Below are positions 808 to 34,551 of a stretch of DNA of 51,969 nucleotides, piece by piece. Numbering within the stretch: the stretch's first letter is position 1; the number at the start of each line of letters is the position of its first letter. The notes under the pieces were generated by a model. It had not been told where the DNA came from. It worked only from the letters and a program-made list of their open reading frames with translations, and ran no database searches. The position numbers were made by a program, and so were the translations under genes. This stretch comes from a virus, in the IMG/VR virus record IMGVR_UViG_3300007513_002219, positions 1 through 51,969 of that record. One strand, written 5' to 3'.

Positions 808-1503
808 TTATTTTTTGGGCAAAACAGAATTTATAAATTTTTTCATTTTATCAAAAGGGACAGATAGTGTGATATGATGAAATCTTGAGTGTATGGCCCA
901 GACCATCCCCACGAGCTTTCCTCTTGAATTTATAATAGGTGAACCAGAGCTACCTGGATTTGCCGGCAGAGAATATATATCAGCGTCGGGATTGTGCATT
1001 CCATCCCCCTTCAAGACTCCGGAATAAAACCCCTCAAAGAGCATCACGAGGTCTTCCCCAAAGACACCTTGTGGCGCAGCGAGGTTGTAAACCTTCTCAC
1101 CAATTTCTGGTTTTGATAAAGCTATGCTGATAGCCCTCTCTGGTAGTTTATCTGATTCCAAGATGCATGCATCAATATCATTACTTTTTTTGATTACCTT
1201 AGTTTCCACCGTTATTGCCTTTTGGGTATGTGCGTTAATTACGTCGATAAAATCAGCCCCCTCCTCATCGCAAAAGTGTCTTGCTGTCAGGATATAAGTT
1301 TTTCCATTGTGGTGTCCAATGATTGCGCCAGACGCAGATGACATTCCAACCATCTGTTTATTTGGGTTAAAAATGAACTTTGTGAGCCCCACAAAGGATT
1401 TTCTTTTCTGATCTAAAAGGTTCTTTGTAAAGAGGTTTGTAAAGGCACAGCTAGAAATTAAAAAAAGTGCACTCAACAAAGGGATCAGGAATAGCTTTTT
1501 CAT
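808..1503 (-). CDS. Secreted lipoprotein, trypsin-like serine protease
   Basis: The 231-residue protein opens with a classical lipoprotein signal: MKK, a hydrophobic core, then the lipobox LISSC with Cys19 as the predicted lipidation site. A trypsin-like (PF13365-type) fold follows, with the catalytic triad visible: His76 in TARHFC, Asp109 or Asp111 in NDIDAC, and Ser186 in GSSGSP. The C-terminal VGMVWAIHS stretch is the usual strand after the active-site serine. Longer starts exist (TTG at 1530, ATG at 1518), but ATG 1503 puts the signal peptide at the N-terminus as the family requires. The mature enzyme should sit in the periplasm or on an outer membrane, which is unusual for a phage gene product. 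It could protect the infected cell, process surface proteins or cause exclusion; the sequence does not say which. It is followed closely by the J-domain gene. Confidence 0.85.
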   Translation of the reverse strand: MKKLFLIPLLSALFLISSCAFTNLFTKNLLDQKRKSFVGLTKFIFNPNKQMVGMSSASGAIIGHHNGKTYILTARHFCDEEGADFIDVINAHTQKAITVETKVIKKSNDIDACILESDKLPERAISIALSKPEIGEKVYNLAAPQGVFGEDLVMLFEGFYSGVLKGDGMHNPDADIYSLPANPGSSGSPIINSRGKLVGMVWAIHSRFHHITLSVPFDKMKKFINSVLPKK

Positions 1504-1610: not shown

Positions 1611-2921
1611 ATGAAAAAATGCACCTACGTTCTCGATACAAGTGTTTTTCTGACAAATGCCAACTCTGTTTATGGATATGGAACAAGTGATATTATTGTT
1701 CCAATGAAAGTTTTGGAAGAGATCGACAAACACAAGAAGAGGCAAGATTCGGTAGGATCGAACGCCCGAACTATTATCCGTATATTTGATGATATGCGAG
1801 AGATAGGATCTCTATACAAAGGAGTCAGGATCCAAAAGGGAAAAGGAATCTTGCGAGTGCGCCCAAGTGCCATTGATGTACACGCCTATTTGCCTGACGA
1901 TCTTTCACCTGATATTCCCGATCATAAGATTATAGCCACAGCAATGCAAGAGAGAGAAAACCGTCCCAAGGTTAATGTTATTTTAGTTTCTCGCGATGTT
2001 AATATGAGAGTAATCTGTGATGCCCTTGGCCTACCAACAGAAGACTACAACCCAGACCAAGTTCTTAAATCTGGCGAAGAGGTATACAGTGGTTTCTCGG
2101 AGAAGATAATAACTGACGAGGATATAGATAAATTCTATGCCGGTAATAAATTTAAATTTAAGTGTGATGATATTCACCCCAATCAATTTCTTTTATTGAG
2201 GTCGGAAAGCAACAAAGCGAAAACAGCACTTGCCCGGTTTATAAATAAAAACGAACCTCTTAGGAAACTCTTTAACAAAAAAAGCACTTACGGAATCCAA
2301 CCGCGTAACAAAGAACAGCAATTTGCGATGGATATACTTCTAGATAAAAAAGTGCCAGTTGTTAGTCTACTTGGGTCAGCAGGCACTGGTAAAACACTAT
2401 GTGCCTTATCTGCGGGTCTTGAGCAAGTCCTAGATTCCGGAGATTACACGCGCTTAATTGTTTCGAGGCCAATACAACCACTTGGAAAAGATATTGGATT
2501 CTTGCCCGGAACGATGGAAGAAAAGATGGCTCCTTGGCTCACACCGATTCAAGACAATCTTCAGTTTCTTATGGGAAATGATAAATTAATGTTGCAAGAA
2601 TACTTAGATCGTGGTACAATAGAGATGGAAGCTATCACTTATATTCGTGGAAGATCTATATCGAAGGCGTTTATTGTCATCGATGAGGCTCAAAATTTAA
2701 CAAGACACGAATTAAAGACTATAATAACAAGGGTGGGAGAAGATTCTAAATTGGTATTAACGGGAGACATCGAGCAGATAGATAACGCCTATGTGGATGA
2801 GACCTCAAACGGACTTACGCATGCTATCGAGAAATTTAAAGAATATAGCTTAGGAGGCCATGTATCTTTCAAGAAAGGTGAGCGTAGCGAAGTGGCTACG
2901 CTAGCGGCTAAAATATTATGA
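1611..2921 (+). CDS. phoH: PhoH-like protein with N-terminal PIN domain
   Basis: 436 residues in two domains. Residues 1-150 form a PIN-type ribonuclease domain with the expected acidic positions: Asp9 in VLDTS, Glu36/37, Asp101/104 and Asp129 in VSRD. Residues 230-436 form the PhoH ATPase, with Walker A GSAGTGKT at 255-262 and Walker B AFIVIDEAQ at 353-361, followed by the sensor-like LVLTGDIEQID. This PIN-PhoH order matches the PhoH2 family, reported as an RNA helicase/ribonuclease in mycobacteria; many phage PhoH proteins carry only the ATPase. A likely role is RNA unwinding and cleavage during takeover of host metabolism. It starts at ATG 1611 behind an AAAGAAAGA purine stretch and heads the long rightward gene series. 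Its stop overlaps the next start as ATGA, implying translational coupling to the metallopeptidase. Confidence 0.92.
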   Translation: MKKCTYVLDTSVFLTNANSVYGYGTSDIIVPMKVLEEIDKHKKRQDSVGSNARTIIRIFDDMREIGSLYKGVRIQKGKGILRVRPSAIDVHAYLPDDLSPDIPDHKIIATAMQERENRPKVNVILVSRDVNMRVICDALGLPTEDYNPDQVLKSGEEVYSGFSEKIITDEDIDKFYAGNKFKFKCDDIHPNQFLLLRSESNKAKTALARFINKNEPLRKLFNKKSTYGIQPRNKEQQFAMDILLDKKVPVVSLLGSAGTGKTLCALSAGLEQVLDSGDYTRLIVSRPIQPLGKDIGFLPGTMEEKMAPWLTPIQDNLQFLMGNDKLMLQEYLDRGTIEMEAITYIRGRSISKAFIVIDEAQNLTRHELKTIITRVGEDSKLVLTGDIEQIDNAYVDETSNGLTHAIEKFKEYSLGGHVSFKKGERSEVATLAAKIL

Positions 2922-3571
2922 TAGTTAACAGAGAACAAAAAGAATTTTTACTATATAATAGAATCCCGGTGATTGCTCAAGATAAGCCATCTTTCGATTT
3001 GCCAGCTGTTTTGCAGGCCGTACAGAAGAGTATTCCCCAGCCACTCACCAAAGATTTGGACTATATTCTCGTAAGTAATTCTGATTACCTAAAAGATAGA
3101 GAAGTAGACTCCGTATATCAGGATGGCATTATTTATATGTCTGCTCGCATTGAAGATGAAGAGACAGCTGTCCTTAGCGTCGTCCATGAGATAGCTCATG
3201 CCATAGAAGAACAATTCCCTTACATTTATGAGGATGAGACAATTGAAACAGAATTTCTGGGGAAAAGAACAAAGCTTTATGAAATTTTATCAGCACATGG
3301 CTTTGATTTAAGTGGTTTAGACTTCTTAAATGCAGAATATTCGGAAAAGTTTGATGATTTCCTCTATTTAGATATTGGATATCCACTATTAAGAAATTTT
3401 GCTTCTGGTCTTTTCCTGTCGCCCTATGCGGCCACGTCAGTCAGGGAATATTTTGCCACCGCGTTCGAGGAGTATTTTATGAGAGAAGCAAAGTATGTAA
3501 AATTGTTTAGCCCAGCTGTTTATATTAAGATTGAAGAGCTGCTAGACGATCTGGGAGAGAATTTCGCATGA
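2918..3571 (+). CDS. Zinc metallopeptidase, anthrax lethal-factor-like (ATLF) type
   Basis: 217 residues. The zinc motif HEIAH is at residues 90-94, inside a helix preceded by the strand IIYMSAR. A second helix, TSVREYFATAFEEYF (173-187), supplies Glu177 or Glu184 as the likely third ligand. That spacing and the YFA.AFEEYF pattern resemble the ATLF-like peptidases rather than thermolysin. It has no signal peptide, so it probably acts in the cytoplasm of the infected cell. Start and stop overlap both neighbours by ATGA, tying it to phoH upstream and a small basic protein downstream. The substrate is unknown; a host protein or phage prohead processing is possible, but no prohead genes are nearby. 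The motif is clear; the exact family is my judgement. Confidence 0.75.
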   Translation: MIVNREQKEFLLYNRIPVIAQDKPSFDLPAVLQAVQKSIPQPLTKDLDYILVSNSDYLKDREVDSVYQDGIIYMSARIEDEETAVLSVVHEIAHAIEEQFPYIYEDETIETEFLGKRTKLYEILSAHGFDLSGLDFLNAEYSEKFDDFLYLDIGYPLLRNFASGLFLSPYAATSVREYFATAFEEYFMREAKYVKLFSPAVYIKIEELLDDLGENFA

Positions 3572-3908: not shown

Positions 3909-4691
3909 TTGCCACATGTATCATTTTCCGCTATTAAAGACTGGAAATTTTGCCCCTTTTACCACAAATTAACGAGAATAGATAAATTAAAAGTTTTCCA
4001 AGGAAATGTTTATACTGCCTTTGGGAAAGCCATTCACAACGTCTGTGAATCTATGCTTATTAGTCGCCAAATTAAAAAATCCTTTGAACCAGAGGAATAT
4101 TTTAAGAAGCAGTTGGTGGAAGAATTAAAGGCTTTACCTCCCGACGTTGCACCCTCGATGAACGAGGCCAAGGCGTTTTTAGAGCAAGGGAGGGAAATTA
4201 TACCTCACATATTACCAGCCCTTAAAGAATATTTTGGAGAGTTCGATCTTGTTTCCTCCGAAGAAGAAATAAATGAAAAATTAGGGTTGGATACAGATGA
4301 CCAATACTCGTTTAAGGGATATGTCGACTGTATCATCAAAACTCCAGACGGGAAGTTTCACGTTATTGATTGGAAGTCCTGCAGTTGGGGCTGGGATATG
4401 CGTAAGCGTACAGATCCCATGGTGACGTATCAGCTTACTTACTACAAACATTTCATTTCAGAAAAACGAGGAATTCCAAAAGAAAATATTGAGACTTATT
4501 TTGCCCTTCTCAAGAGAACGGGAAAAAAAGATAGGGTTGAATTATTCCGAGTTACATCGGGAGAAAAAAAGACAAATAATGCCCTTAAACTTTTGGAACA
4601 ATCGGTTTATAATATTGATAGGCAAAACTATGTTAAGAATCGTCTGTCCTGTAATCGATGTGAATTTAAGGGGACGACACATTGCCCGTAG
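3909..4691 (+). CDS. Cas4/RecB-like PD-(D/E)XK nuclease with Fe-S cysteines
   Basis: 260 residues. The pattern is that of Cas4/AddB-type exonucleases: FSAIKDWKFCPF with Cys15 near the N-terminus, His43 in the GKAIH helix, Asp140 in GYVDC, Asp154-x-Lys156 in VIDWKS, the YQLTYY helix (174-179, QxxxY motif), and a C-terminal C-x2-C-x7-C at 248, 251 and 259. Together with Cys15 these can hold a [4Fe-4S] cluster. Such enzymes trim DNA ends; marine T4-like phages often carry one near replication genes. It starts at TTG 3909, the only in-frame start close to the upstream gene, with a GAGAG purine site 5' of it. There are no CRISPR repeats or other cas genes here, so a phage recombination or end-processing role is more likely than spacer acquisition. 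Confidence 0.85.
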   Translation: MPHVSFSAIKDWKFCPFYHKLTRIDKLKVFQGNVYTAFGKAIHNVCESMLISRQIKKSFEPEEYFKKQLVEELKALPPDVAPSMNEAKAFLEQGREIIPHILPALKEYFGEFDLVSSEEEINEKLGLDTDDQYSFKGYVDCIIKTPDGKFHVIDWKSCSWGWDMRKRTDPMVTYQLTYYKHFISEKRGIPKENIETYFALLKRTGKKDRVELFRVTSGEKKTNNALKLLEQSVYNIDRQNYVKNRLSCNRCEFKGTTHCP

Positions 4692-4699
4692 GGGAAACT

Positions 4700-5962
4700 A
4701 TGACAAAGAAAAATATTTTAACAATCGGTGATCACCCGTTTTCACCGAGCGGCGTTGGGACTCAAACAAAATACGTTATCGAAGCTCTGTTAAAGACAGG
4801 AAATTATAAAGTTATTTCGTTGGGTGGTGCAATAAAACACCAAAATTACCAACCTACCAAAACAGAAGAGTATGGCGAGGATTGGGTAACACACCCTGTC
4901 GATGGATACGGCACCCACGACTTGGTTCGGTCTATCATTCGAACTGAGAAAATAGATATGGTTTGGATTATGACCGACCCAAGATTCTGGGGTTGGCTTT
5001 GGGAGATCGACGATGAGGTTCGATCACTCTGTCCTCTCGTTTATTATCACGTTTGGGATAACTATCCCTACCCAACCTTCAATAGATCACATTATTTATC
5101 AAACGATGTGATTGCCACGATTTCGAAAGTAACCGACGACATTGTTCGAACAGTTGCACCGGAGGTCGAGTGCCACTATGTCCCACACGCAGTAGCTCAG
5201 GACATTTTCAAGCCACTCCCCGATGACGAAATTCAAGAATATAAAAAATTGTCTATGGGCCCAGCACAAGGCGATGATAAATTTATATTTTTTTGGAACA
5301 ATAGAAATGCCCGACGGAAACAGAGCGGTTCGCTATTGTTTTGGTATAAAGACCTGCTAGACAGGATTGGCCACGACAAGACGTGCCTGATCATGCACAC
5401 TGATGTTAAGGATCCTCACGGACAGGATCTAGAAAGAATCATCCAGGAATTTAATATGGTCCGTGGAGAGGTAATGTTTTCCACCAAAAAGCTCCCACCA
5501 CAGGAGCTTGCAAAATTATATAACATGGCCGATTGCACAATAAACATTTCAGATGCAGAAGGCTTCGGATTGGCAACTCTTGAATCTTTATCATGTGGAA
5601 CTCCGATCATTGCCACCACCACCGGCGGCTTGAAGGAACAAGTCACCGACGGCGAGAATACTTTTGGGATTGCAATTGATCCATCTTCGAAAGCAATTAT
5701 AGGATCTCAGGACATTCCATGGATTTATGAAGATAGACTTAGCGGTAAAGATGTCACGGACGCCATGCAAAAGATGGTTGAAATGCCGCCAGAAGAAAGA
5801 AAGCGCCTTGGTCAACTTGGGAAAGAGCATGTAGACAAAAATTATAGCTTTGAAAATTTCCAGGAAAGCTGGACTACCCTTGTTAAGAATGTGATGGAAG
5901 ATCATGGCTCTTGGGGAGATCGAAAGAAATATAATAAATGGACTCTGACGGAGATATTATGA
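4700..5962 (+). CDS. GT4-type glycosyltransferase (first gene of the glycan cluster)
   Basis: 420 residues from ATG 4700, chosen over an upstream TTG (4682) because AGGGG at 4690-4694 is well spaced for it. The N-terminus has ILTIGDHPFSPSGVGTQ, the glycine-rich first strand and loop of a GT-B fold. The C-terminal half carries SDAEGFGLATLESLSCGTPIIATTTGG in several consecutive motifs, including the E-x7-E signature (EGFGLATLE) that binds the donor nucleotide sugar. No membrane segment is present, so it acts in the cytoplasm on a soluble or membrane-bound acceptor. Its stop overlaps the next transferase (ATGA). Donor and acceptor cannot be read from sequence. Confidence 0.88.
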   Translation: MTKKNILTIGDHPFSPSGVGTQTKYVIEALLKTGNYKVISLGGAIKHQNYQPTKTEEYGEDWVTHPVDGYGTHDLVRSIIRTEKIDMVWIMTDPRFWGWLWEIDDEVRSLCPLVYYHVWDNYPYPTFNRSHYLSNDVIATISKVTDDIVRTVAPEVECHYVPHAVAQDIFKPLPDDEIQEYKKLSMGPAQGDDKFIFFWNNRNARRKQSGSLLFWYKDLLDRIGHDKTCLIMHTDVKDPHGQDLERIIQEFNMVRGEVMFSTKKLPPQELAKLYNMADCTINISDAEGFGLATLESLSCGTPIIATTTGGLKEQVTDGENTFGIAIDPSSKAIIGSQDIPWIYEDRLSGKDVTDAMQKMVEMPPEERKRLGQLGKEHVDKNYSFENFQESWTTLVKNVMEDHGSWGDRKKYNKWTLTEIL

Positions 5963-7221
5963 AGAAAAAAGTAATTGTAAAAGGCCCAGCACTAAGTGCT
6001 TCTGGGTATGGTGAACACGCTCGCTTTGTTTTGCGAGCCCTTCGAAAGAGGGAAGATATTTTTGATATATATTTCCATAACCTTAACTGGGGCAAAACAG
6101 GTTGGATCTTTGAAGATTCCGAAGAACGAGCATGGATTGATTTCTTAATCGCTAAAACGGTAAACCACATTAGGGAGAATCAAAATAATTTGAGTTTTGA
6201 TTTTTCTTTACAAGTTACCATTCCAAATGAGTTTGAAAAAATGGCCAATGTAAATATCGGTGTCACCGCAGGAATTGAAACTACAAAGTTGGCCCCTGTT
6301 TGGCTCCAAAAGGCTAACGAAATGGATAAAGTTATTGTTGTTTCTAATCATGCAAAATATGGTTTTGAAAATACCAAATATCCCCTCATGAATGAGAACA
6401 AGGAGCATGTTGCTGATTTGACATGCAACGTCCCCGTTGAAGTCGTCGGTTATCCCGTTAAAAAGTATGAACCAGCGGATATTGACTTTGAATTTGATAC
6501 TGAATTTAATTTTTTAGCAGTGGCACTTTGGGGACAGAGGAAAAACATCGTTAAGACAATTGAGAACTTCGTTGAAGAATTTAAGGACGACCAAGATGTT
6601 GGCCTTGTTGTCAAAACTGCTCTTCGGGGAGGTTCCACCTATGATCGGATAGGAACCGAGTCGGTAATTAAAAATGTATTAAAAAAATATCCTGATAGAA
6701 AATGTAAAGTCTATCTCTTACATGGGCGATTATCCGAAGAGGAAATGACAACACTTTATCAGCATGATAAAATCAAGTGCATGGTTTCTTTGGCTCACGG
6801 AGAAGGTTTTGGCCTTCCTCTGTTCGAGGCTGCGTATAATGGTTTACCAATTGTGGCCACCGATTGGAGCGGACATGTTGATTTCTTATACGCCCCACAG
6901 AAAGACAAAAAAGGTAAGACAAAATTAAGAGGTCTCTTTGGAAAAGTTGCTTACGACTTGAACAAGGTTCAAAAAGAGTCAGTTTGGGAAGGGGTCATTG
7001 TCCCCGACGCATTATGGGCCTACCCATCAGATCGTTCGGCAAAAACCAAAATGAGAGAAGTATATAAAGATTATCAATTGGCTTTAAACAAAGCAAAGAA
7101 GCTGAAGAAGCACGTCGAAGAAAAATTTGAAGCAGAGAAGATGCTAGACAAGGTGGTCTCAACTTTTTATTACGATCCTCTTGACACTGGTCAGGTTGAC
7201 TTGGAAGAGCTATTGTCATGA
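5959..7221 (+). CDS. GT4-type glycosyltransferase
   Basis: 420 residues, starting at ATG 5959 inside the ATGA overlap with the previous gene, with GGAG just upstream. It begins VIVKGPALSASGYGEHARF, a GT-B N-terminal glycine loop, and has HGEGFGLPLFEAAYNGLPIVA with the E-x7-E donor-binding signature (EGFGLPLFE) and a following WSGH acceptor-side loop. The middle of the protein is more diverged from the first transferase than the C-terminal part, so it probably uses a different acceptor. A Lys-rich helical C-terminus ends in VDLEELLS. The three consecutive transferases (4700-8354) look like successive steps in building one oligosaccharide. Exact specificity is unknown. Confidence 0.85.
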   Translation: MKKKVIVKGPALSASGYGEHARFVLRALRKREDIFDIYFHNLNWGKTGWIFEDSEERAWIDFLIAKTVNHIRENQNNLSFDFSLQVTIPNEFEKMANVNIGVTAGIETTKLAPVWLQKANEMDKVIVVSNHAKYGFENTKYPLMNENKEHVADLTCNVPVEVVGYPVKKYEPADIDFEFDTEFNFLAVALWGQRKNIVKTIENFVEEFKDDQDVGLVVKTALRGGSTYDRIGTESVIKNVLKKYPDRKCKVYLLHGRLSEEEMTTLYQHDKIKCMVSLAHGEGFGLPLFEAAYNGLPIVATDWSGHVDFLYAPQKDKKGKTKLRGLFGKVAYDLNKVQKESVWEGVIVPDALWAYPSDRSAKTKMREVYKDYQLALNKAKKLKKHVEEKFEAEKMLDKVVSTFYYDPLDTGQVDLEELLS

Positions 7222-8354
7222 TTGGTATGGTTTGCGATTTTTATCACCCCTCTATTGGTGGTACTCAAAAGTTGTGCCAATCGGTTGCAGAAATTTTCCA
7301 TGACTCCGATTACTCAGTGGAGGTGATCACGACGCTTGACCACAACCGCCGCGCCAGCGATTTCGATTATCCTGTTGTTGAGTTCTCAAATTTAAATTTT
7401 GCAAACAATCCTTTGTTTTTTTCTAAGCACTATAAGAGCGTTTTTGTTTTTGCGGACTTGTTTTCTCCGTCCTTCCATACAATACAACTAGAGACCATAA
7501 ACCATGCGACTCTTGTTCTGAATTTGGATGAGAATGTTTATAGGTGGATTCAAAATGAGGAGATGGGCCTTACAAAAGAAGTGGTATCTAGGCTTGTTGA
7601 GAAGATAAAGAATTTTGATAATGTCGTCTCCTTCTGTAAAGAAGCGCCAATTAATAAATTTCTTGAAGAAAATGATATAGAATATACTTTTATTCCAAAT
7701 TTTAGCAGAGATGTTCAAAAGACGGAAAGAAGAGATTTTGACTTACACGCAACCCTTGGGCTCGATGAACGCAAGAAGGTGATATTCAATCACGGACTTT
7801 TCGAAACAAGAAAGAATCAATTATATTTGCTAGAGAGCTTTTATAGGGCCGATTTACATAAAGATTATTCTCTTATTTTCCTCGGAAACCCAAGAGGAGC
7901 CAACGACGTTCCTTATTTCCAGAAGTGTAAAGAATTTGTTGAGGAAAACAACCTTGAAGAGAGTGTTAAATTTGTGAAAGGGACAAACAATGTTTCATTA
8001 ATTGATTCTCTTTTGTTGAAGTCGGATATTTACGTCTTACCTTCCACCGCCGAGGGATTGCCGCTGGTATTAATAGAAGCAATGAGTGCAGATCTTCCAT
8101 GGGTCTCAACTCCTGTCGGCGGCGTTCCCGCACTTATGGGTTCACTTGCGGGAGGAACAGTTTTATCTAATATAGGCTTCACACCAGAAGAGCTTAGAGA
8201 AGCAATAACCTCAGTATCAAAAAAGAAGAGCCGCGCCGATTGGGAAAACAACTTTTCAAGAGAGATTGCAGCAGCGAATTATTTAAAATTAATAGAAAAT
8301 ATTGAGAAAGACTTAAAAGAAAAAGAACAGGAAGCAAGAAATGTCTTTATGTGA
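7218..8354 (+). CDS. GT4-type glycosyltransferase
   Basis: 378 residues, coupled to the previous gene by ATGA. The N-terminal GMVCDFYHPSIGGTQ is the hallmark first loop of GT4 enzymes (the phosphatidylinositol mannosyltransferase type). KVIFNHGLFETRKNQ supplies the Lys/Arg pair that contacts the donor diphosphate, and PSTAEGLPLVLIEAMSADLPWVST carries the E-x7-E signature (EGLPLVLIE). Length and order are normal for the family. It overlaps the next gene by 14 bases, so translation is tightly linked. It is probably the third committed transferase of the same glycan; the sugar donor is unknown. Confidence 0.88.
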   Translation: MIGMVCDFYHPSIGGTQKLCQSVAEIFHDSDYSVEVITTLDHNRRASDFDYPVVEFSNLNFANNPLFFSKHYKSVFVFADLFSPSFHTIQLETINHATLVLNLDENVYRWIQNEEMGLTKEVVSRLVEKIKNFDNVVSFCKEAPINKFLEENDIEYTFIPNFSRDVQKTERRDFDLHATLGLDERKKVIFNHGLFETRKNQLYLLESFYRADLHKDYSLIFLGNPRGANDVPYFQKCKEFVEENNLEESVKFVKGTNNVSLIDSLLLKSDIYVLPSTAEGLPLVLIEAMSADLPWVSTPVGGVPALMGSLAGGTVLSNIGFTPEELREAITSVSKKKSRADWENNFSREIAAANYLKLIENIEKDLKEKEQEARNVFM

Positions 8355-17758: not shown

Positions 17759-18726
17759 AAAAAGCACTTATAACTGGCATTACTGGCCAGGACGGAAGCT
17801 ACTTAACAGAGTTTTTACTTTCAAAGGGATATGAGGTGCATGGCGTTGTGCGAAGACACTCAGTTGCCGAAAACCAAGATGCCAGAATACGACACTTGGA
17901 AGGGGAGAATGTCCACACTCACTATGGAGATTTGTTGGACTATCCGTCTCTATATAGAATTGTGTCTGAGGTGATGCCTGATGAGATTTACAATCTTGGC
18001 GCAATGAGTCATGTGAGAATTAGTTTTGATTTACCTTCCTTCACTATACAAACTAACGCCTTGGGCGTTTTGAATATTCTTGAAATATATAGGACGATTT
18101 GTCCAAATGCTAAATTTTATCAAGCCAGTTCCTCGGAAATGTTTGGCAACTCTGTGGATGAGGACGGGATGCAAAGGCTGACAACGCCAATGAATCCCGT
18201 AAGTCCATACGGGTGTGCAAAGGTTTTGGGGTTTAATTTGGTGAAACATTATCGACATGCATATAAGTTACACGCCTGTAATGGCATATTGTTTAACCAC
18301 GAAAGCCCGCGACGCGGTTCCAACTTCGTAACAAATAAAGTTGTAAAACACGCAGTGGAAATTAAAAAAGGGCTTCGAGATAAATTAGAGTTGGGGAACT
18401 TGGACTCTTATAGGGACTGGGGCCACTCAAAAGATTATGTTAGGGCGATGCATGCAATTATAAATCACGAAACTCCGGAGGATTTTATTGTCTCTACACA
18501 AGAGACTCACTCCGTCAGGGATTTGTGTGAAACAGTGTTCAGCAAACTAAACATGGACTACAAAGATTATGTTGTCCAAAGCGAAGCGTTCATGAGACCA
18601 GAGGAATTGAAATACCTCAAAGGAGACTCTTCAGGGACTAGGGACTGCTTGGGTTGGTCGCCCGAATATACTTTTGATACAATGATAGATGAAATGATTG
18701 AAAGCTGGATGTCAAAATTAAATTAA
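17755..18726 (+). CDS. gmd: GDP-mannose 4,6-dehydratase
   Basis: 323 residues of the extended short-chain dehydrogenase family. GITGQDG (8-14) is the NADP-binding GxxGxxG, HGVVRRHS the specificity loop, YQASSSEMFG carries the catalytic Ser/Thr-Glu, SPYGCAKVLG the Tyr-x3-Lys, and FNHESPRRGSNFVTNK the GDP-mannose-binding block characteristic of Gmd. It converts GDP-mannose to GDP-4-keto-6-deoxymannose, precursor of GDP-fucose, GDP-rhamnose and GDP-perosamine. The epimerase/reductase (WcaG) needed for GDP-fucose is not in the window. ATGA overlap couples it to the miniature DegT gene. It ends somewhat shorter than usual, and a single-base change in the AAA at 18720-18722 would add about 21 residues. 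Confidence 0.93.
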   Translation: MKKALITGITGQDGSYLTEFLLSKGYEVHGVVRRHSVAENQDARIRHLEGENVHTHYGDLLDYPSLYRIVSEVMPDEIYNLGAMSHVRISFDLPSFTIQTNALGVLNILEIYRTICPNAKFYQASSSEMFGNSVDEDGMQRLTTPMNPVSPYGCAKVLGFNLVKHYRHAYKLHACNGILFNHESPRRGSNFVTNKVVKHAVEIKKGLRDKLELGNLDSYRDWGHSKDYVRAMHAIINHETPEDFIVSTQETHSVRDLCETVFSKLNMDYKDYVVQSEAFMRPEELKYLKGDSSGTRDCLGWSPEYTFDTMIDEMIESWMSKLN

Positions 18727-18784
18727 GTGGAAAGAAAACGTTGATGAATCGATCCATGATAAGATTGTCGAATATTTAAAGTAA
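18722..18784 (+). pseudogene. Orphan C-terminal tail after gmd (frameshifted or remnant)
   Basis: The 57-base gap after gmd holds an open frame, ATT at 18722 to TAA 18782-18784, reading KWKENVDESIHDKIVEYLK, which looks like a genuine helical protein C-terminus. It has no start codon of its own, and its stop overlaps the next ATG as TAATG, the junction style of real gene pairs in this genome. Removing one A from 18720-18722 would fuse it to gmd. It is therefore either a frameshifted gmd tail (natural or an assembly error) or the last scrap of a deleted gene. Confidence 0.4.
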
Positions 18785-19101
18785 TGATTATCTACGTTGA
18801 CATCGATGAAACGATTTGTATTTCTCCGGAAAGCAGAGATTATTCTAAGGCTATCCCCATAAAGAAAAATATTAACAAAATAAACAAAATGTATGATAAT
18901 GGAGATACGATAATTTATTGGACGGCAAGAGGAACTGGAACTGGAATAAACTGGAGAGAAGTAACAGAAAGACAATTCGAAAATTGGGGTGTTCAATACC
19001 ACGAATTGAAATTTGGAAAACCTCAATATGACCTCTTTATAGATGATAAAAACATGAACACAGAAGATTTTTTTGGCAAACCTACAGGAGTTAGCAAATG
19101 A
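18784..19101 (+). CDS. HAD-superfamily phosphatase of capsule-biosynthesis type
   Basis: 105 residues. VDIDETI places the nucleophile/acid pair at Asp6 and Asp8 (DxDxT motif). YWTARG is motif II with the Thr, and LKFGKPQYDLFIDDKNMN provides the motif III Lys and the motif IV acidic pair. It is a capless minimal HAD domain like the small phosphatases in bacterial capsule and O-antigen clusters, which dephosphorylate sugar phosphates. Here it could serve after NeuB-type or hexose-phosphate steps. TAATG upstream and ATGA with glutamine synthetase downstream place it firmly in the operon. Confidence 0.85.
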   Translation: MIIYVDIDETICISPESRDYSKAIPIKKNINKINKMYDNGDTIIYWTARGTGTGINWREVTERQFENWGVQYHELKFGKPQYDLFIDDKNMNTEDFFGKPTGVSK

Positions 19102-20099
19102 CCAAATTAGAATATATATGGGTAGATGGCACACAGCCTACCCCGACACTGAGAAGCAAAACAAAAGTTGTTGAAAGCCTCGGCAGACACTGGGAAGACC
19201 TTGCTCTTCTGGATGACTGCCCAATTTGGGGGTTTGATGGATCATCAACAAACCAAGCAGAAGGAAATAATTCAGATTGTGCTTTAAAGCCAGTTAGGAT
19301 ATACGAGAACCCCCTCAACCATTCGGGATATTTGGTTTTGTGCGAGGTGCGGAATGTCGATGATACTCCCCACGAGACCAATACTCGCCAGCTTTTAGAG
19401 TCTTTCGTGGCATCAGATACCAACGAGCCTTGGTTCGGCGTTGAGCAGGAGTATACTTTCTATAAAGATGGCCAACCTCTTGGGTGGCACAACGGTGAGC
19501 CACCCCCTCAAGGTGATTATTATTGCGGAAGAAACATTGGCGACGGAATTGCTCATTACCATCTGGATATGTGCATTGAGTGTGGCATCAAGATCTGCGG
19601 CATCAATTCTGAGGTAATGCTTGGCCAATGGGAATACCAAATCGGAGCTGCAGACCCTCTTCGTGTATCTGATGATTTGTGGGTGGCCCGATGGCTTATG
19701 GAAAAGATTTGTGCCAAAAAGGGATTGACTGTATCTCTCGACCCTAAACCCGTCGAAGGTGACTGGAACGGTGCAGGCTGCCACACTAATTTTTCAACTA
19801 AAGAAATGCGTGAAGAGGGTGGAATCAAATTCATTCATGAGGCAATCGACAAGTTGGGAAAAGTACACAAGGAACATATTTCCATGTATGGCAACGGAAA
19901 CGAAAACCGACTGACAGGCGATCATGAAACTTGCGACATTGACACCTTCAGAGCAGGAGTCTCAGATCGAGGTGCATCAATTAGGATTCCATGGCAGGTG
20001 AATAAAGACGGAAAGGGCTACTTAGAAGATAGACGCCCCGCCTCCAACTGCGATCCGTATTTGGTTTGCTGGCGCGTTTTAAAAACTGTATTGGAATAG
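19098..20099 (+). CDS. glnII: Glutamine synthetase, type II (GSII, eukaryote-like)
   Basis: 333 residues, full length for GSII. In order: WGFDGSSTNQAEG (44-56, the ammonia-site latch Asp), GVEQEYT (114-120, metal Glu116/118), NSEVMLGQWEYQIG (Glu172, Glu179), GDWNGAGCHTNFST (His229), GNGNENRLTG (Arg271) and YLEDRRPASNCDPY (Glu310, Arg312/313). All catalytic residues are present, so it should make glutamine from glutamate, ammonia and ATP. GSII lacks the adenylylation loop of host GSI and so would escape that host control. It is coupled by ATGA to the HAD gene at the end of the glycan cluster. The role could be nitrogen supply during infection or glutamine as amine donor for amino sugars; sequence alone does not choose. 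Confidence 0.95.
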   Translation: MTKLEYIWVDGTQPTPTLRSKTKVVESLGRHWEDLALLDDCPIWGFDGSSTNQAEGNNSDCALKPVRIYENPLNHSGYLVLCEVRNVDDTPHETNTRQLLESFVASDTNEPWFGVEQEYTFYKDGQPLGWHNGEPPPQGDYYCGRNIGDGIAHYHLDMCIECGIKICGINSEVMLGQWEYQIGAADPLRVSDDLWVARWLMEKICAKKGLTVSLDPKPVEGDWNGAGCHTNFSTKEMREEGGIKFIHEAIDKLGKVHKEHISMYGNGNENRLTGDHETCDIDTFRAGVSDRGASIRIPWQVNKDGKGYLEDRRPASNCDPYLVCWRVLKTVLE

Positions 20100-27500: not shown

Positions 27501-30500
27501 TGGCCATAATTGACGGCCAGGAAATCCCCACAATACTTATAGATGGAGAAAAGTTTCGAGGGCCACTGGCAGTCGAAGAGAAAAGTAGTGCCACCCCGTC
27601 CTCAACTGGAACATCGGAAATTATAGTGGCATCTGCAAACTCAGAAAAGAGCGTAAAAGGATTCGCAGGTCAAATAGATGAGATATGTATTTTTAATAAA
27701 GTCTTATCACCTCAAGATTGGGTGAAGCTGGCTAAGGTACAAAGTGATCAAAACTTGTCGACTAAAGGACTCTCGCGCTATGCATCTGCTTGGTGGAGAA
27801 TGGGAGATACAGTTGGTGACGCACTAACATCCAGATCTATCCAGTATAATAAGGGAGAAATAGTTGATCGCATATCTTCTATAAATTTATCACCTGTCAC
27901 TCAACCGGATGGCGGCGTTAGAGAAGATGATCCTCGCTCTCCGGGAAAAGCATGGGCATCCTTTGAGAAAGGTTCCCAATTTATTGTCGTGACGAGACTC
28001 TTTAAACCGAGTGACGAAGACGAGTTTCTTTCAATAATTGATCGGAATGTCGATTTGGTGAGGTTGTGCGATTATTTCGTTAAACAAATAAAAGATGTTT
28101 TGGCCTTCGCTGCCGACCCGGAAAAAATAATTGATGATATTGAGGCCATGCTTAAGATACCTGAGTTCCCAAAAGATCCCCACTTTGAGATTGAGGTCTT
28201 TATAAAGAAGGCGGTCTTTGAGCAGTTGATAAAACAGTTTTCTCAATTTTTATTAGACCTCGTTGAAGAATACATATTAAATTGCGAGAACTGGAGAGGA
28301 CTTGTTCAGGCTTTAGTAAAGGGAACCCTCTCTGGTGGTGACGTCGGTGCTGCATGGAAAGATGCCTTTGGGGACAATATGAACCAAAATCCTCTTATGC
28401 AGCTTTTGGGAGGCAACGTAACTTTTGAGGATATGTTTAAAGCGGCCGCTCCTGCCATAGCCAACTCAATAGAGTCTGTTATTTCCTCCACTGGGTTTCA
28501 ATATTCTGCCGATGGTCAGACACCTACGTCTCTCGGCCTCGGTACCGTATTGTTTTCAAACAGAGCCCAACTCGCTGCTGACATTTATGATATGCCGGGG
28601 AGCACCGGAGCCTCTAGTTTTCAGGTGGCCATCCAAAACGGGAACATGGAAACAGCAGCTACTATAGAATTAATTAAAAAGACAACTGAAGAAATCCGCC
28701 CGGATGAAGCATTGGAACTCTTCTCTGGAAACGCCTCCGCTCAAACGTTGGAAAAAGTCAAGCAGGTCGTGAGAGATAATTTTTCTGACTCATCAGTCAT
28801 CAATGTAGAAACGGTGCCTATCCTTTTTGCCTCTTTTGCCGAGGCCATCGGCGCCGGTAATTCAATAAACCAATTTCAGGTCATGTCACAGTTTCTTATG
28901 AATAATTTCCCCCCCTCTGGAGATCCCTGCGATCCCGGAAGCACATTTAGAGATAAGATTGGCCAAGGGCTTGATAGGATGCAAGATCAGCGAGGAAAAG
29001 ATCTTATCGACAAGGGTCTTGATTTGGGCCAAGAACGGCCCCCCAACAATTGCCCCCTTGCAATCCCGTTAACGGCCTATGAACGCCGAGCACTCAGAAA
29101 CACCATCACCACAACCTATACTCCTGTTTTGTCTGCCTACGATAATGACCTTAACTTGTATCGAGTTGGCCTGACTTCTGTGGGGAAAACAGAAGAGAAG
29201 ATTCGAAAAATATACTGGAAGGGTGAAACTATAACGCAGAAAGTTTTTGATGGCAACGCAGGGGTCGAGGAAAAAGCAATAGAAATTGAAAAAACCCAGG
29301 TGAACCCCACCTTTAAGGTTTTGATTGAGCAGGGGTATATTCCCATGACAAGCAAGGGAGAAGTCGATGGGACTGAGTATGGCGGTGTTGTTAAGACCCA
29401 GTGGAACCCCTTCAAGGATAATTGGCTTGGCGAAAAAAGACCGCCTGAATCCTTGGTTGCAAAGCAGCCTGCCACTGAGGATGATGACGTCGAGCAACCA
29501 GATATTGATATCGGAGATTTACATAAGAGCTTGGGCCCATATACTGATTATGATGACAGCGAAGAAGTAGGAGGAAGTGCATATGCGGCAGTTCAAACCC
29601 CATCTGTGAAGTTGGGAGGTAAGTCTATTGAGGCCCTATCAATGACGAACGCCAAATTCTCAATGTCCGACGAAGAGTCAGAAGAAAGAGCTTATTACTT
29701 CAAATCGCGCAAGGAAGCAGAATCATGGCGGGGATATAAAAATATAATATCCTCCAACGAATCGAGCATATACGGATCAGGAATGTTGGACGAAAACTAT
29801 GCAGGAGATACAAATAGTCGCTCTACCATGGTTTATCAGACCAAATATGGAACGGAGCTAGCCGGCAAGAAGAAAATCTCCTACATCAAGAAAACCCCCA
29901 CAGGATCTAATATTTATAATTTTGATGCCAATTTAGATTTTAAACTTTCATCCGACTTGAGGCAGAAAATTTTAGATTCTGGGTTTCAAGACGCTGAACC
30001 CTCCGAAGAGGTCTGCGATGACGCGTCATCAGCCACCACCGCAATGCCGGAGGAACTAAAGTATACTCCACAAGAAAACGTTTTTGAGTTTGTGGTTAAT
30101 AATGAAAATTCTAACTTGCAAGTTGGCGCGGATGAAATAAAAACCTCCGTATATGATTCGGTCTACAGAGAAACACTAACAGCGATGATGATGAAGGTGG
30201 CTGACTCTCCCCTTTTAAAGACTGTGCCAGGAACTACCGACGGTGGCAACGCTGGCCTCGTGGGGCTGAACTTTCTGAATTTAAATCAAACTCCACGCCT
30301 CATTGATATGGAATCGTTTGCGCTGCAGGTGTCTGAGGACTATGCTTCATTGTTAGCCTGCCCCGATGAGTCGACGGAAGCTCCTATCTATCGAGCCCTC
30401 AAAATGTCAGTGACAAGAATGCTTGCTAGAATTTGTTTGGTTGATTTTATGTTGAGAGGGATAATACCATTTTCACAACTAGCTTTTAGCAAAAAAGATC

Positions 30501-32254
30501 CGGTCATAAAGAAATTCATTATACAGAAGTTGGAAGTAGATTTAAATGTATTTACGACTGCAACTAACCGCCTCTCCAAGTCGGAGGTTTTGGATGGAAT
30601 TCATGGAAAGATTGTCGAAGAATTCAACACCCAGGCCGCCAGCGGAGACATTGATGAAGACCTCCTCGATGTCGCTATGTTTCGCGAGAACTGGCGAGAT
30701 GCAATAGATTACTACATAGAAGATGAGTTTGATTTTATTTTAAATAGAATAAAAGAAACTGTCCACGGTGGATGCATTGAAGAGGAATCAGAATCACCCG
30801 ATGGTATCACCAAAGATATGTACCGCGCCATCTTAAAGTATGCAAACGGAAGAGAGGGAAATCTCAGGACAGAAAAATATACAGTTTCTAAATCTGGACA
30901 AAAGAAAACAGATTACTTTGTAGATTCCAATGAGGCTCAAGCGAACTTATCTAAGGTTGGGATATCCTTGTTTTACTCACACAACAATAAGAAAATTGTC
31001 CTATGTACTGTTGAAAAAGATTATGACGAAGTTAAGGAAACACTTCAGATTCCCGACATCATTGGCGAAGTGGATTGCGATGATCGCTCTCTATATTCCC
31101 CCGAAGGGGAAACAACCAAGAACCATGATCATTCTCATGGCTACGAGATTGATGCAAATGGAAATGGGAGAACAACTACAACAATCGGCTCCAGTGTCCC
31201 CCACACTCATCCGATAAATAGATATACGGTGGTTCCGAAGATTGCATCGGACGGAACGGTAGAGCACGTTCACTCGCTTCCGAAGAATCCTAGCGAAGCT
31301 CAAGTCGCAGCTGGCAGCCTGAAAGTAAAAATTGAAGATTATATGGAAGAGTTACTAATCGAGGAGGACAACTTTAAGATAATGTTTGATTATTGTTTTG
31401 ATCTTAAAGAAGTGTCTTCTCTTGTTTTGGTCTATTCTGTCATCTCTGCTGAGAACCAAATTATGCTTAATTGTTTTAACGGAACCAAGAAAGCGATTAT
31501 TGACATGTATGGTTGGCTTTGGCAGGAGGGCCCAACGACAGATCCTTGTAGTAGTGATATTTCTAAGCCCTTCGCCCCTGACTTTGGAGACCTCCTGCCC
31601 GATTTTGGAGATTTCATGGACAACCCACAGGCTCTTCTAATGTTTATCCTGGCCCCTCTTTTAACATTTCGTGGCTGGACGAAGACAGCCGATCCCCACG
31701 TATTCGTGACGACAACCATCATGGATGTCTTTAATATGCCCATAAACCCAAAATGGTCCAAGAAAAATATACAGGTTAACCCCCTCGATCCAACCGATGT
31801 TGAGTGCATGTGTTGGCCCTCGTGGCCCGGCACCAGACCAATGGATGATATAACTATCGCTACACACTTTGCCATCAATGGCCTCACTCTCGAAGCAGCA
31901 GTCGCGCTGGGCGTTACATGGGCCCCAGTGCCCATCACCGGAGTCCCCTTTACACCAACCCCATTTGGAATGTGGTATTATTTTCTTGTAATGCCACTTA
32001 TTTGGCTCATAAGAGACCTACCGAGACTCGTTGATATGTACCAGCAGACCGATCAGGGCGTCCAAGCTTTAGCTAGTATTGGAATGGGAACCGGTGAGAT
32101 AGTCTGTGATCCAGAGGATCCAACACAGTCGAATGCTAATGCTAACCAATCAAGCGGTGAAGAGGATTGCCCATCGCTGACACAGCCCACTGACTGCCCA
32201 CCACTTAAACCAATGGCAGAAACAATTATAGATGTTTCTTCTTCAGAGTGTTAA
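24512..32254 (+). CDS. Giant (2580-residue) baseplate/tail protein with LysM-like, LamG and HxH regions
   Basis: A single 7.7 kb frame between the spike and gp25 genes, so almost certainly a virion protein. Visible parts: helical N-terminus (1-640); a LysM-like stretch near 657-750 (YTVREGDKIEIS ... YKLNPSF ... LKAGQIIKIPK); a LamG/concanavalin-like domain near 878-1060 (AVTFNGDGFLKS, KFHQVGFSWLG, LVAIIDGQ, GQIDEICIFNK); a long mixed region; a His cluster near 2203-2255 (HDHSHG, HTH, HVH), like HxH metal sites of phage fibres and spikes; and a hydrophobic C-terminal part (2460-2510, MWYYFLVMPLIWLI). LamG points to carbohydrate binding and LysM to peptidoglycan. It may combine several baseplate proteins that are separate in T4. 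Exact role unknown. Confidence 0.75.
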   Translation: MEEQLELLYQKWKDPYQNRTARAMTFPVYATFVPDILDDPIPPTFYINGIPLDEFECEYIYGRAVTDDSDYFISFYETDAGQMRLQYDEYVLEEQNRQLEISLENERRRRDDQKAADAQTSLTLSDYEAGQKRLWERTNSNTPAAIKKLKEDLLYIRPYFQRKEIATPSNIAAQEASDAGEVYFLANPIGPDGYTGMNTDIGPLKDKVFEAITAHYESANAPTLFNPPLKAAIRVLREYFGLRRADYPNPTFYIELERIKTEVATYFGRPLNQEIYEPRDLVTPTSDPFLSQKMTMAPIFTEEEIEELELINLNPILPEDLLDDKKRILDPNFKLWSSSPDGQPNEDFPSIDGKRVKAADGEFSIAGTKAEGQIKNFYDVYASSTQSLRWLFEMHQKTLEDTLANDPTSISANGNDFELDFENLELVMRAIEIIKTENTFAAKMPISEQEFDTLSKFQATLAVTKGDSAVVRAIFIYYFDKDFQDYEATPFREPVIKTIAVKNGNPDLPPPFPDYMSGNTVRYLSKIRDLEEAAYEIFGEDYINEMQYQRDSQAKMQAATKKLEKRYNGCFSPDSWYANIHAGMEKLLTHKYADIFKFSKEFQKPPITKKAGTEEEKNKDRAKNNTEDVSAFKKIMTGTKKDIEKTVKDIAINATAEDYTVREGDKIEISVDPNASMEFNRIGDEADSVLKDLRLQIVGHPRQQTSDWDYLRAPGSLADLAVTRNFPPTEDWFYKLNPSFMPTTVGPETKNVPLKAGQIIKIPKAGGFDPGAMQAAGASMFSGITEDIGVEEWPKFFKEALLDPLILKICPETLPSRIVECLLPSNCRELIKYVGLWRARQLLEYIVQFDVFEFRDSRPGIQKALDEWDELISDRYNFKAVTFNGDGFLKSGPIDGNILYPAGADKVSVSLLVRITAEDNSANGIPNQRKINGERQKCILTQKGTFSIRTKKGNISIFLTSADGKEVEYTLTGSDKFHDGKFHQVGFSWLGAIGELVAIIDGQEIPTILIDGEKFRGPLAVEEKSSATPSSTGTSEIIVASANSEKSVKGFAGQIDEICIFNKVLSPQDWVKLAKVQSDQNLSTKGLSRYASAWWRMGDTVGDALTSRSIQYNKGEIVDRISSINLSPVTQPDGGVREDDPRSPGKAWASFEKGSQFIVVTRLFKPSDEDEFLSIIDRNVDLVRLCDYFVKQIKDVLAFAADPEKIIDDIEAMLKIPEFPKDPHFEIEVFIKKAVFEQLIKQFSQFLLDLVEEYILNCENWRGLVQALVKGTLSGGDVGAAWKDAFGDNMNQNPLMQLLGGNVTFEDMFKAAAPAIANSIESVISSTGFQYSADGQTPTSLGLGTVLFSNRAQLAADIYDMPGSTGASSFQVAIQNGNMETAATIELIKKTTEEIRPDEALELFSGNASAQTLEKVKQVVRDNFSDSSVINVETVPILFASFAEAIGAGNSINQFQVMSQFLMNNFPPSGDPCDPGSTFRDKIGQGLDRMQDQRGKDLIDKGLDLGQERPPNNCPLAIPLTAYERRALRNTITTTYTPVLSAYDNDLNLYRVGLTSVGKTEEKIRKIYWKGETITQKVFDGNAGVEEKAIEIEKTQVNPTFKVLIEQGYIPMTSKGEVDGTEYGGVVKTQWNPFKDNWLGEKRPPESLVAKQPATEDDDVEQPDIDIGDLHKSLGPYTDYDDSEEVGGSAYAAVQTPSVKLGGKSIEALSMTNAKFSMSDEESEERAYYFKSRKEAESWRGYKNIISSNESSIYGSGMLDENYAGDTNSRSTMVYQTKYGTELAGKKKISYIKKTPTGSNIYNFDANLDFKLSSDLRQKILDSGFQDAEPSEEVCDDASSATTAMPEELKYTPQENVFEFVVNNENSNLQVGADEIKTSVYDSVYRETLTAMMMKVADSPLLKTVPGTTDGGNAGLVGLNFLNLNQTPRLIDMESFALQVSEDYASLLACPDESTEAPIYRALKMSVTRMLARICLVDFMLRGIIPFSQLAFSKKDPVIKKFIIQKLEVDLNVFTTATNRLSKSEVLDGIHGKIVEEFNTQAASGDIDEDLLDVAMFRENWRDAIDYYIEDEFDFILNRIKETVHGGCIEEESESPDGITKDMYRAILKYANGREGNLRTEKYTVSKSGQKKTDYFVDSNEAQANLSKVGISLFYSHNNKKIVLCTVEKDYDEVKETLQIPDIIGEVDCDDRSLYSPEGETTKNHDHSHGYEIDANGNGRTTTTIGSSVPHTHPINRYTVVPKIASDGTVEHVHSLPKNPSEAQVAAGSLKVKIEDYMEELLIEEDNFKIMFDYCFDLKEVSSLVLVYSVISAENQIMLNCFNGTKKAIIDMYGWLWQEGPTTDPCSSDISKPFAPDFGDLLPDFGDFMDNPQALLMFILAPLLTFRGWTKTADPHVFVTTTIMDVFNMPINPKWSKKNIQVNPLDPTDVECMCWPSWPGTRPMDDITIATHFAINGLTLEAAVALGVTWAPVPITGVPFTPTPFGMWYYFLVMPLIWLIRDLPRLVDMYQQTDQGVQALASIGMGTGEIVCDPEDPTQSNANANQSSGEEDCPSLTQPTDCPPLKPMAETIIDVSSSEC

Positions 32255-32757: not shown

Positions 32758-34551
32758 ATGACAAAACTCAAAAATGTCCCCATAAATTATACCAGTCGAG
32801 ATTTCGAAACAATCAAACAAGACTTGGTAGATCATGCAAAAAGATATTACCCGGATACCTTCCAAGATTTCAATGAAGCCGGCTTTGGTTCTCTAATGCT
32901 TGATACAGTTGCATACGTTGGCGACATTCTTTCTTTTTATGCAGACTACCAAGCAAGCGAGAGTTTTATCGACACGGCCTCTGAGTTTAATAACCTCATT
33001 AGTCTTGGAAAACAAACGGGATTTAAGTTAAAGAGGAATACAGCATCGCAAGGGATTGCAACGTTTTTTATTATGGTTCCCGCTAACTCTTCTGGCACCG
33101 CGCCAGACACCAGATATATACCAATTTTGAAGAAGGAAACTTCGATGACCTCGACCTCAAACGCAAGATTTGTCCTAAACGAAGATGTTAATTTTTTGTC
33201 TGGCGACACCGTTGTTGCAAGAACCGACCCCGACACCGGCGCCCCAACCTATTTTGCTGTGAAGAATTATGGCGCCATTTCTTCAGGAGAGCTCGTCTCG
33301 GCCGCTATTACGGTCGGAACTTTTAAGAAGTACAGAGAAATTTCTGTTGAGGATCCATTTATTACAAATATCGTATCTATTGTCGATTCAGATGGTCACG
33401 ACTATTATGAGGTTGACTACCTAACTCAGAATGTTATTTTTCGGTCTATAGCAAATCGAGATGCAACAACGAGAGAACTGGCCCCAGAGATTCTTAAACC
33501 ATTGGTAGTTCCGCGCCGATTTGTAACTGAACACAATGCCGGAGGAATAAAAATACAATTTGGATCAGGACTTGAAGAGACGAATGCCAATGATAGAGTT
33601 CTAGACCCATCCTCAGTATCCATGAAAATGTATGCGAAACCATATATATCAGATGTCGAAATGGATCCAAGCAAACTCCTCTCATCCGACACCCTTGGGG
33701 TCTCCCCAGCAAACACTCAACTAACAATAACTTACCTCAGAAACACCAGAAGTGATGTGAATATAAGTGCAAATTCCCTGACAAAAGTAGACAGGAATAT
33801 AATGGAATTTCAGGATGTAAACTCTTTAGACCCCTCCCAAGTTGGCATCGTTCGAGCTTCTGTTGAGGTTACGAACGGGAGCCCCATTGTTGGTTCGATT
33901 TCTGACACGGACGTAGATGAGTTGAGAAGGAGAATTTCTAATTCCTTTTCCAACCAGCGCCGCGCTGTGACACTCAAGGACTATGAAACTATGGCCTACG
34001 CTATGCCCTCTAAATTCGGAGCCCTCAAAAGAATCAGGGCGATAAAAAACCCAAACCCACGACGTGGGAATCTCAACATCGCCGTAATCGCGGAAGATGC
34101 CTCTGGTTATCTTACAGAATCAAATTTAGTTTTGAAAGACAACCTTCGAACGTGGCTCGACAAGGGCCGAATGGTGAGCGATGTTGTTGAAATAACGGAT
34201 GCAAAGATTATTAATTTGGGCATAAACTTTACAGCCATCGGCGACTTAGATAAAAACCGAAGCGCCATATTGCAAGATTGCATAGAGGCGATTGCAATCC
34301 TGTATAGCAACAAAGCTGAAATCGGGGAAGCCTTTTATATAACTGATGTGTATAAGACACTTAAAGATGTCGATGGCGTCATTGACGTGGTTGATGTAGG
34401 TGTCGTTACTAAGAATGGCTCCAATTATAGTAGCATCTCATTTGACATAAATGATAATCTGTCCGAAGATGGAAGGTCTATTGTGATGCCCCGAAACGTA
34501 ATTTATGAAATCAAATATCCCACCTTGGATATCAAGGGGGCAATTAAATAA
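32758..34551 (+). CDS. Baseplate wedge protein, T4 gp6-like (baseplate J family)
   Basis: 597 residues. The N-terminus (INYTSRDFETIKQDLVDHAKRYYPDTFQDFNE, in part) and the following GSLMLDTVAYVGDILSFYADYQ are the hallmark first block of gp6 in marine T4-like phages. The middle has strand-rich domains with FGSGLEETNANDRV, and the C-terminal half has RRAVTLKDYETMAYAMPSKFG, the baseplate J core. gp6 dimers form the inner iris of the baseplate. AGGAG at 32743-32747 gives the ribosome site. It ends in a TAATG overlap with the next structural gene. Confidence 0.92.
   Translation: MTKLKNVPINYTSRDFETIKQDLVDHAKRYYPDTFQDFNEAGFGSLMLDTVAYVGDILSFYADYQASESFIDTASEFNNLISLGKQTGFKLKRNTASQGIATFFIMVPANSSGTAPDTRYIPILKKETSMTSTSNARFVLNEDVNFLSGDTVVARTDPDTGAPTYFAVKNYGAISSGELVSAAITVGTFKKYREISVEDPFITNIVSIVDSDGHDYYEVDYLTQNVIFRSIANRDATTRELAPEILKPLVVPRRFVTEHNAGGIKIQFGSGLEETNANDRVLDPSSVSMKMYAKPYISDVEMDPSKLLSSDTLGVSPANTQLTITYLRNTRSDVNISANSLTKVDRNIMEFQDVNSLDPSQVGIVRASVEVTNGSPIVGSISDTDVDELRRRISNSFSNQRRAVTLKDYETMAYAMPSKFGALKRIRAIKNPNPRRGNLNIAVIAEDASGYLTESNLVLKDNLRTWLDKGRMVSDVVEITDAKIINLGINFTAIGDLDKNRSAILQDCIEAIAILYSNKAEIGEAFYITDVYKTLKDVDGVIDVVDVGVVTKNGSNYSSISFDINDNLSEDGRSIVMPRNVIYEIKYPTLDIKGAIK

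Follow-up and report, generated by a model that had tools for sequence, protein, structure and literature searches.

Exported trypsin-like proteases and J-domain proteins are both already known from phages. The account of the alphaproteobacterial phage cluster N places a trypsin-like serine protease and phoH in the same phages (PMC10783043), and Rki of the T4-related phage RB43 is described as an early-expressed J-domain protein that binds to DnaK and makes sigma-32 more stable (PMC3486835). Among phage lipoproteins, Llp of T5 is described as acting on the receptor from the periplasmic side, and the gene for it adjoins the receptor-binding gene (PMC9586334). Another phage trypsin-like protease, p036 of Rhizobium phage 16-3, is annotated as typically periplasmic. 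We know of no protease activity in T5 Llp or Cor, and the phage lipoproteins known to us to change the host surface all work by binding.

Here we describe a gene from a 51,969-base virus record that was analyzed at its full length (the window). On balance we favor the reading that its product is an exported, lipid-anchored endoprotease of HtrA fold that would cut host envelope proteins to the advantage of the phage, as a separately controlled module. Like Llp and Cor, it is predicted to be a phage-encoded outer-membrane lipoprotein; those are small receptor blockers, whereas the window protein is a protease by sequence. A conserved phage protease in the envelope would serve the ends of the binding lipoproteins, or other ones, by catalysis. 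This clade-wide, lipid-anchored, PDZ-less and separately controlled form, usually inverted beside phoH, appears to be new; no phage lipoprotein protease was found in a literature search by title and abstract start, a search whose coverage leaves out most subscription journals.

The protease and its predicted place in the envelope

The gene lies on the minus strand at positions 808-1503, with its ATG at 1503 and its stop codon at 808-810, and encodes a protein of 231 amino acids. The Pfam Trypsin_2 profile (PF13365) matched over its full length (1-144) at 2.5e-14, with 54.7 bits against a cut-off of 27.6. All three residues of the catalytic triad are present: His76 (codon 1276-1278), Asp111 (1171-1173) and Ser186 (946-948, within GSSGSP). 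The protein begins with a lipoprotein signal peptide (residues 1-18; with the lipidation residue, 1447-1503) that reads MKKLFLIPLLSALFLISSC, having a charged start, a hydrophobic stretch and an I-S-S-C lipobox that ends in Cys19 (codon 1447-1449). The LISSC lipobox and the intact His-Asp-Ser domain of the original prediction were therefore both found. Its term "trypsin-like" held for the fold but not for Lys/Arg specificity: the alignment position that we take to be residue 189 is Asp in just 2 of 42 relatives, and trypsin-type specificity is not supported. A Glu-specific pocket had been considered from the His common at position 202 (29/42), and was dropped because in our numbering this residue lies one place off the known position.

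An AlphaFold2 model built from a 39-sequence alignment had a mean pLDDT of 91.7. When it was compared with solved structures by Foldseek, DegP, Deg1, DegQ, DegS and HtrA1 ranked first. Among the VIA-align matches listed, HtrA1, DegQ, DegP and DegS were the best, with Z scores of 23.0 to 25.8 over 176 to 204 residues; the top one was HtrA1 3nzi (Z 25.8, 202 residues, rmsd 2.9), and identities in the structural alignments listed were 15 to 23%. The protein shares with this group the protease-domain fold, the His-Asp-Ser order and, as predicted, an exported envelope location. It differs in carrying two invariant Cys and a predicted lipid anchor, whereas the HtrA/Deg proteins are transmembrane or soluble, and in having no PDZ domain: Pfam gave no PDZ match up to E 0.1, and the model ends after the protease domain. 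Scores with the NCBIfam models were far under the cut-offs (34.9 vs 416.2 bits for the Do family and 15.7 vs 422.95 bits for DegS). Such a combination suggests that the protein would work like an HtrA protease domain, yet it fails a defining feature of the HtrA family. Across the family as a whole, HtrA domains without PDZ are available in many natural forms.

Weak profile similarities to LmuA (1.7e-8) and RT-Protease (6e-8) bear on a role in counter-defence, in which the protease would destroy an anti-phage system's sensor in the membrane or periplasm. The idea has general plausibility, and trypsin-like proteases themselves occur in defence systems; however, these matches reflect the shared fold and are uninformative on targets, and no linked anti-defence gene was recognised, so that we regard this role as distinctly unlikely.

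Concerning location, the lipidation Cys was aligned in 43 of 44 distinct protease sequences of the family, and the exception (L082) has a Cys that is displaced in the alignment. Of the 44, 35 matched a numerical lipobox pattern, and in the 191-kb relative G001 a strict lipoprotein pattern matched 3 of 204 ORFs, its protease among them. In E. coli an Asp at position +2 keeps a lipoprotein in the inner membrane, and in Bacteroidota an acidic stretch after the Cys is a signal for surface export. None of 43 relatives has Asp directly after the lipidation Cys, and none has two acids within the next five residues or any acidic run. These residues fit a proteobacterial outer membrane and a periplasm-facing protein, although proteobacterial rules may not be those of the host. 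Weak hints to the host are a lipoprotein with MopE repeats in G001 and Bdellovibrio and Myxococcus relatives among the best 80 of 578 bacterial phoH matches. A surface position, implied by the original prediction's comparison with surface lipoproteins, is not supported by the sorting residues. Its exported, membrane-anchored lipoprotein protease is well supported by sequence, with the lipobox, the conserved Cys and the intact triad, and is predicted to be active. The protein would leave the cytoplasm through Sec, receive its lipid at Cys19 and be held by it in the host envelope, most likely in the outer membrane and facing the periplasm.

Conservation and the phoH locus

Relatives were collected in two scans of viral contigs. 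The window protease as query gave seven loci, from which, together with the window protein, a protease HMM was made. The second query was the neighboring PhoH, a PIN-PhoH fusion by its profile matches, which is encoded divergently at 1611-2921 on the plus strand and is a conserved landmark of the locus; here the best 80 of 413 loci were taken. The HMM found a match in 46 of these best 80 loci, the protease gene being divergent from phoH in 45 and on the same strand in one (L038), and no protease adjoining phoH in the other 34. Five of the 80 were contigs of the HMM's own members, and the independent count is 41 of 75. The carriers are an uncultured T4-like clade of large phages. In L073, L074 and L079 a 156-aa protein without a Pfam match, bearing a signal peptide by eye, is encoded between protease and phoH (L074:3421-3891, minus strand).

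The 44 distinct protease sequences, two of which are truncated by contig ends before the Ser, all keep the His and Asp of the triad, and the Ser is present in 42/42 that reach that position. The same invariance (44/44) was seen for two family-specific residues, Cys78 at His+2 (1270-1272, minus strand) and Cys113 at Asp+2 (1165-1167, minus strand), which would form a disulfide and would suit an oxidising compartment. In the one pair used for dN/dS, the window and its nearest relative L001 (92.6% identical), the values were 0.042 for the protease, whose dS was near 1, 0.043 for PhoH and 0.119 for the J-like gene that follows the protease gene. They point to strong purifying selection by which catalysis would be maintained, and since the active site never varies the protease probably cuts host envelope proteins, one or a few of them, to the advantage of the phage. 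That it is a captured host gene devoid of function is highly improbable. Trypsin_2 does occur in 12 of 14 cellular control genomes, but the strength of the selection and the invariant active site argue against this origin, as does the finding that the best 80 of 578 bacterial phoH loci hold no protease of the window family. A single-pattern scan with A3 for a bacterial source likewise gave no relative.

Of 23 larger related records, 15 gave a Trypsin_2 score over the cut-off, with one match in each, and the family HMM added a sixteenth (G011), so that exactly one trypsin-like protease was found in 16/23. A lipobox is present in 15 of these 16 proteases. Records of less than 100 kb may be fragments; of those of at least 100 kb, 13 of 15 have exactly one. 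No protease was found anywhere in G009 or G010, both of at least 100 kb, which look like one lineage by the same gene sizes at phoH. Given these two records and the 34 of the best 80 phoH loci that have no adjoining protease, the enzyme is not essential to all members of the clade. By sequence, 11 of the 16 proteases belong to the phoH-linked kind. A second and distant kind, in G008, G015, G017, G018 and G019, is without the two Cys and lies at another place in the genome, in the same direction as the neighboring genes. By eye four of these have a lipobox and that of G019 has an ordinary-looking signal peptide; the G018 protein carries Asp at +2 and by the E. coli rule would stay in the inner membrane.

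Cultured relatives were sought by tblastn in a phage collection. Three phoH-linked queries produced just two weak matches, both with the window protein and both to Acinetobacter records annotated as degS; no cluster N phage was among the matches of the window protein. Of two second-kind queries, one matched four rhizobial phages and the other none. The 16-3 protein p036 was matched by the second kind, with an identity of 33% over 53-54%, and not by the window protein, from which it also differs in phage type and genome place.

The one exported-looking protease per record (16/23) is compatible with superinfection exclusion or an entry block, in which the enzyme would cleave the phage's own receptor or entry partner. 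Phage lipoproteins do exclude from the periplasmic face, as described for T5 Llp (PMC9586334). However, the protease neighbors are phoH, a nuclease and glycosyltransferases, with no receptor-binding or tail gene; the nearest recognised tail gene among the window ORFs scanned is at 32758, some 31 kb away, whereas the Llp gene is described as lying beside the receptor-binding gene (PMC9586334). There is also no sign of surface exposure of the protease, and we consider this purpose rather unlikely, if still to be taken seriously. As a wider and tentative proposal, which we hold to be unlikely, the clade would rely on one lipid-anchored PDZ-less protease per genome for envelope editing, mainly for catalytic superinfection exclusion, with the second kind replacing the first where that one is missing.

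The J-like gene and the inverted unit

The second gene of the unit, which is lineage-specific, lies at 109-792 on the minus strand, begins 15 bases beyond the stop codon of the protease and encodes a J-like protein of 227 amino acids with an HPD motif at residues 118-120. The predicted two-gene minus-strand unit was borne out in this way, and so was the claim that no other gene pair points left: of the 42 non-overlapping window ORFs with 60 aa or more, 39 lie on the plus strand, and the sole other minus-strand ORF (18718-19134) shares sequence with ORFs of the plus strand and is probably spurious. In G001, 183 of 204 ORFs run opposite to the pair, whose members are the two longest exceptions. 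The Pfam DnaJ match of the J-like protein is under the cut-off (13.8 vs 27.8 bits), and the HPD is kept in 6/6 J-like sequences. A predicted structure of moderate quality (pLDDT 70.6) places it between helices at 103-117 and 127-146. Foldseek gave no match of this model to a solved structure at E 0.001; HscB was listed in the structural comparison, with a Z of 4.4 and an rmsd of 14.1.

The expectation that protease and J-like gene form a conserved pair failed. In the 45 loci with a divergent protease (from the best 80 of 413), the gene after it was a J gene in 7, several of these being near-identical (L013 and L014; L047 and L049), and a gene on the opposite strand in 31; in 5 the contig ended there, and in 2 a short overlapping, probably spurious ORF followed. 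Six of the 23 larger records have a J relative, four together with a protease and two, G009 and G010, in which no protease was detected; the J gene of G009 is once more a lone inverted gene. These counts rule out a fixed pair. The J-like gene is an optional lineage extra, and since the follower genes vary across loci the protease is the steadier fixture. In G011 the protease is 7.4 kb from phoH and still inverted. The place of the J gene is taken there by a gene on the same strand, which overlaps the protease gene at its end and whose product is a lipoprotein that matches von Willebrand A weakly (L186:12412-13437). A Cys-rich 98-aa lipoprotein is encoded convergently with the J gene at L001:9375-9671 (G001 158802-159098), and by eye the window has a different-looking ORF on the left side of its J gene.

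By analogy with Rki, likewise a J-domain protein of a T4-related phage, the window J-like protein may act on host DnaK and would then be an optional cytoplasmic add-on, probably working on DnaK as Rki does. The two differ in layout, the J-domain His mutated in Rki being described as residue 38 (PMC3486835), whereas the HPD of the window protein is in mid-protein. A joint role of both gene products in envelope proteostasis can be imagined, in which the protease would clear misfolded envelope proteins and the J protein would be the cytoplasmic part through DnaK. The closest folds among the matches listed include the quality-control proteases DegP, DegQ and DegS, and the RB43 protein is described as acting on DnaK and the heat-shock factor (PMC3486835); but the protease is without a PDZ domain and a J gene follows it in only 7/45 loci (from the best 80 of 413), and such a role is, in our estimate, unlikely.

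Expression control and neighboring genes

The most enriched 7-mers upstream of G001 genes were CTACTTA and CTATTTA. The corresponding ACTAYTTA occurs at 20 sites in G001, 20/20 on the majority-gene strand, several of them 30-47 bases before starts, and precedes the baseplate gene and phoH, among others; it is by its distribution a strongly directional promoter-like element. In the window it is present as ACTATTTA at 1564-1571 on the plus strand, facing phoH and not the protease. Across the phoH-protease gaps of the 45 loci (from the best 80 of 413), it faces phoH in 24/45 and the protease in 1/45, and a search for motifs before the protease mostly recovered this same phoH-facing element in reverse complement. 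Sigma-70-like promoters before the protease were not above shuffles (mean z of -0.59 in 40 regions), and a scan of the window region found 3 such sites against 4.2 expected; an early sigma-70 promoter was rejected, and early protease expression is thus not supported. A Shine-Dalgarno-like AGGAGG was seen upstream of the protease in 9/39. As the element faces phoH and no sigma-70-like signal exceeds shuffles, expression of the protease is probably under a control separate from that of phoH and of the structural genes, and the protease would be an independent module of the T4-like clade.

The same element is relevant to a role in lysis, by which the protease would loosen the outer membrane late, beside or instead of spanins. 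As a lipoprotein predicted to sit in the outer membrane and face the cell wall, the protease would be well placed for this, but it is without the element that precedes the baseplate gene, and we judge a lysis aid very unlikely. A purpose other than exclusion, proteostasis, counter-defence or lysis is only somewhat unlikely.

Three further observations were made among the neighboring and related genes. A lipoprotein encoded at L091:8836-10800 (G001 28836-30800) has five stretches of Cys-rich, metal-binding repeats of the MopE type (Pfam 1.3e-31) and, towards its C-terminus, what looks by eye like a von Willebrand A motif. The zincin-like metalloprotease at 2918-3571 (plus strand), kept in several relatives, is another protease close to phoH; it shows a HEIAH motif by eye and a weak Peptidase_M90 match (4.5e-4). 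Three consecutive glycosyltransferase genes occupy 4682-8354 on the plus strand, and related ones recur in the relatives.
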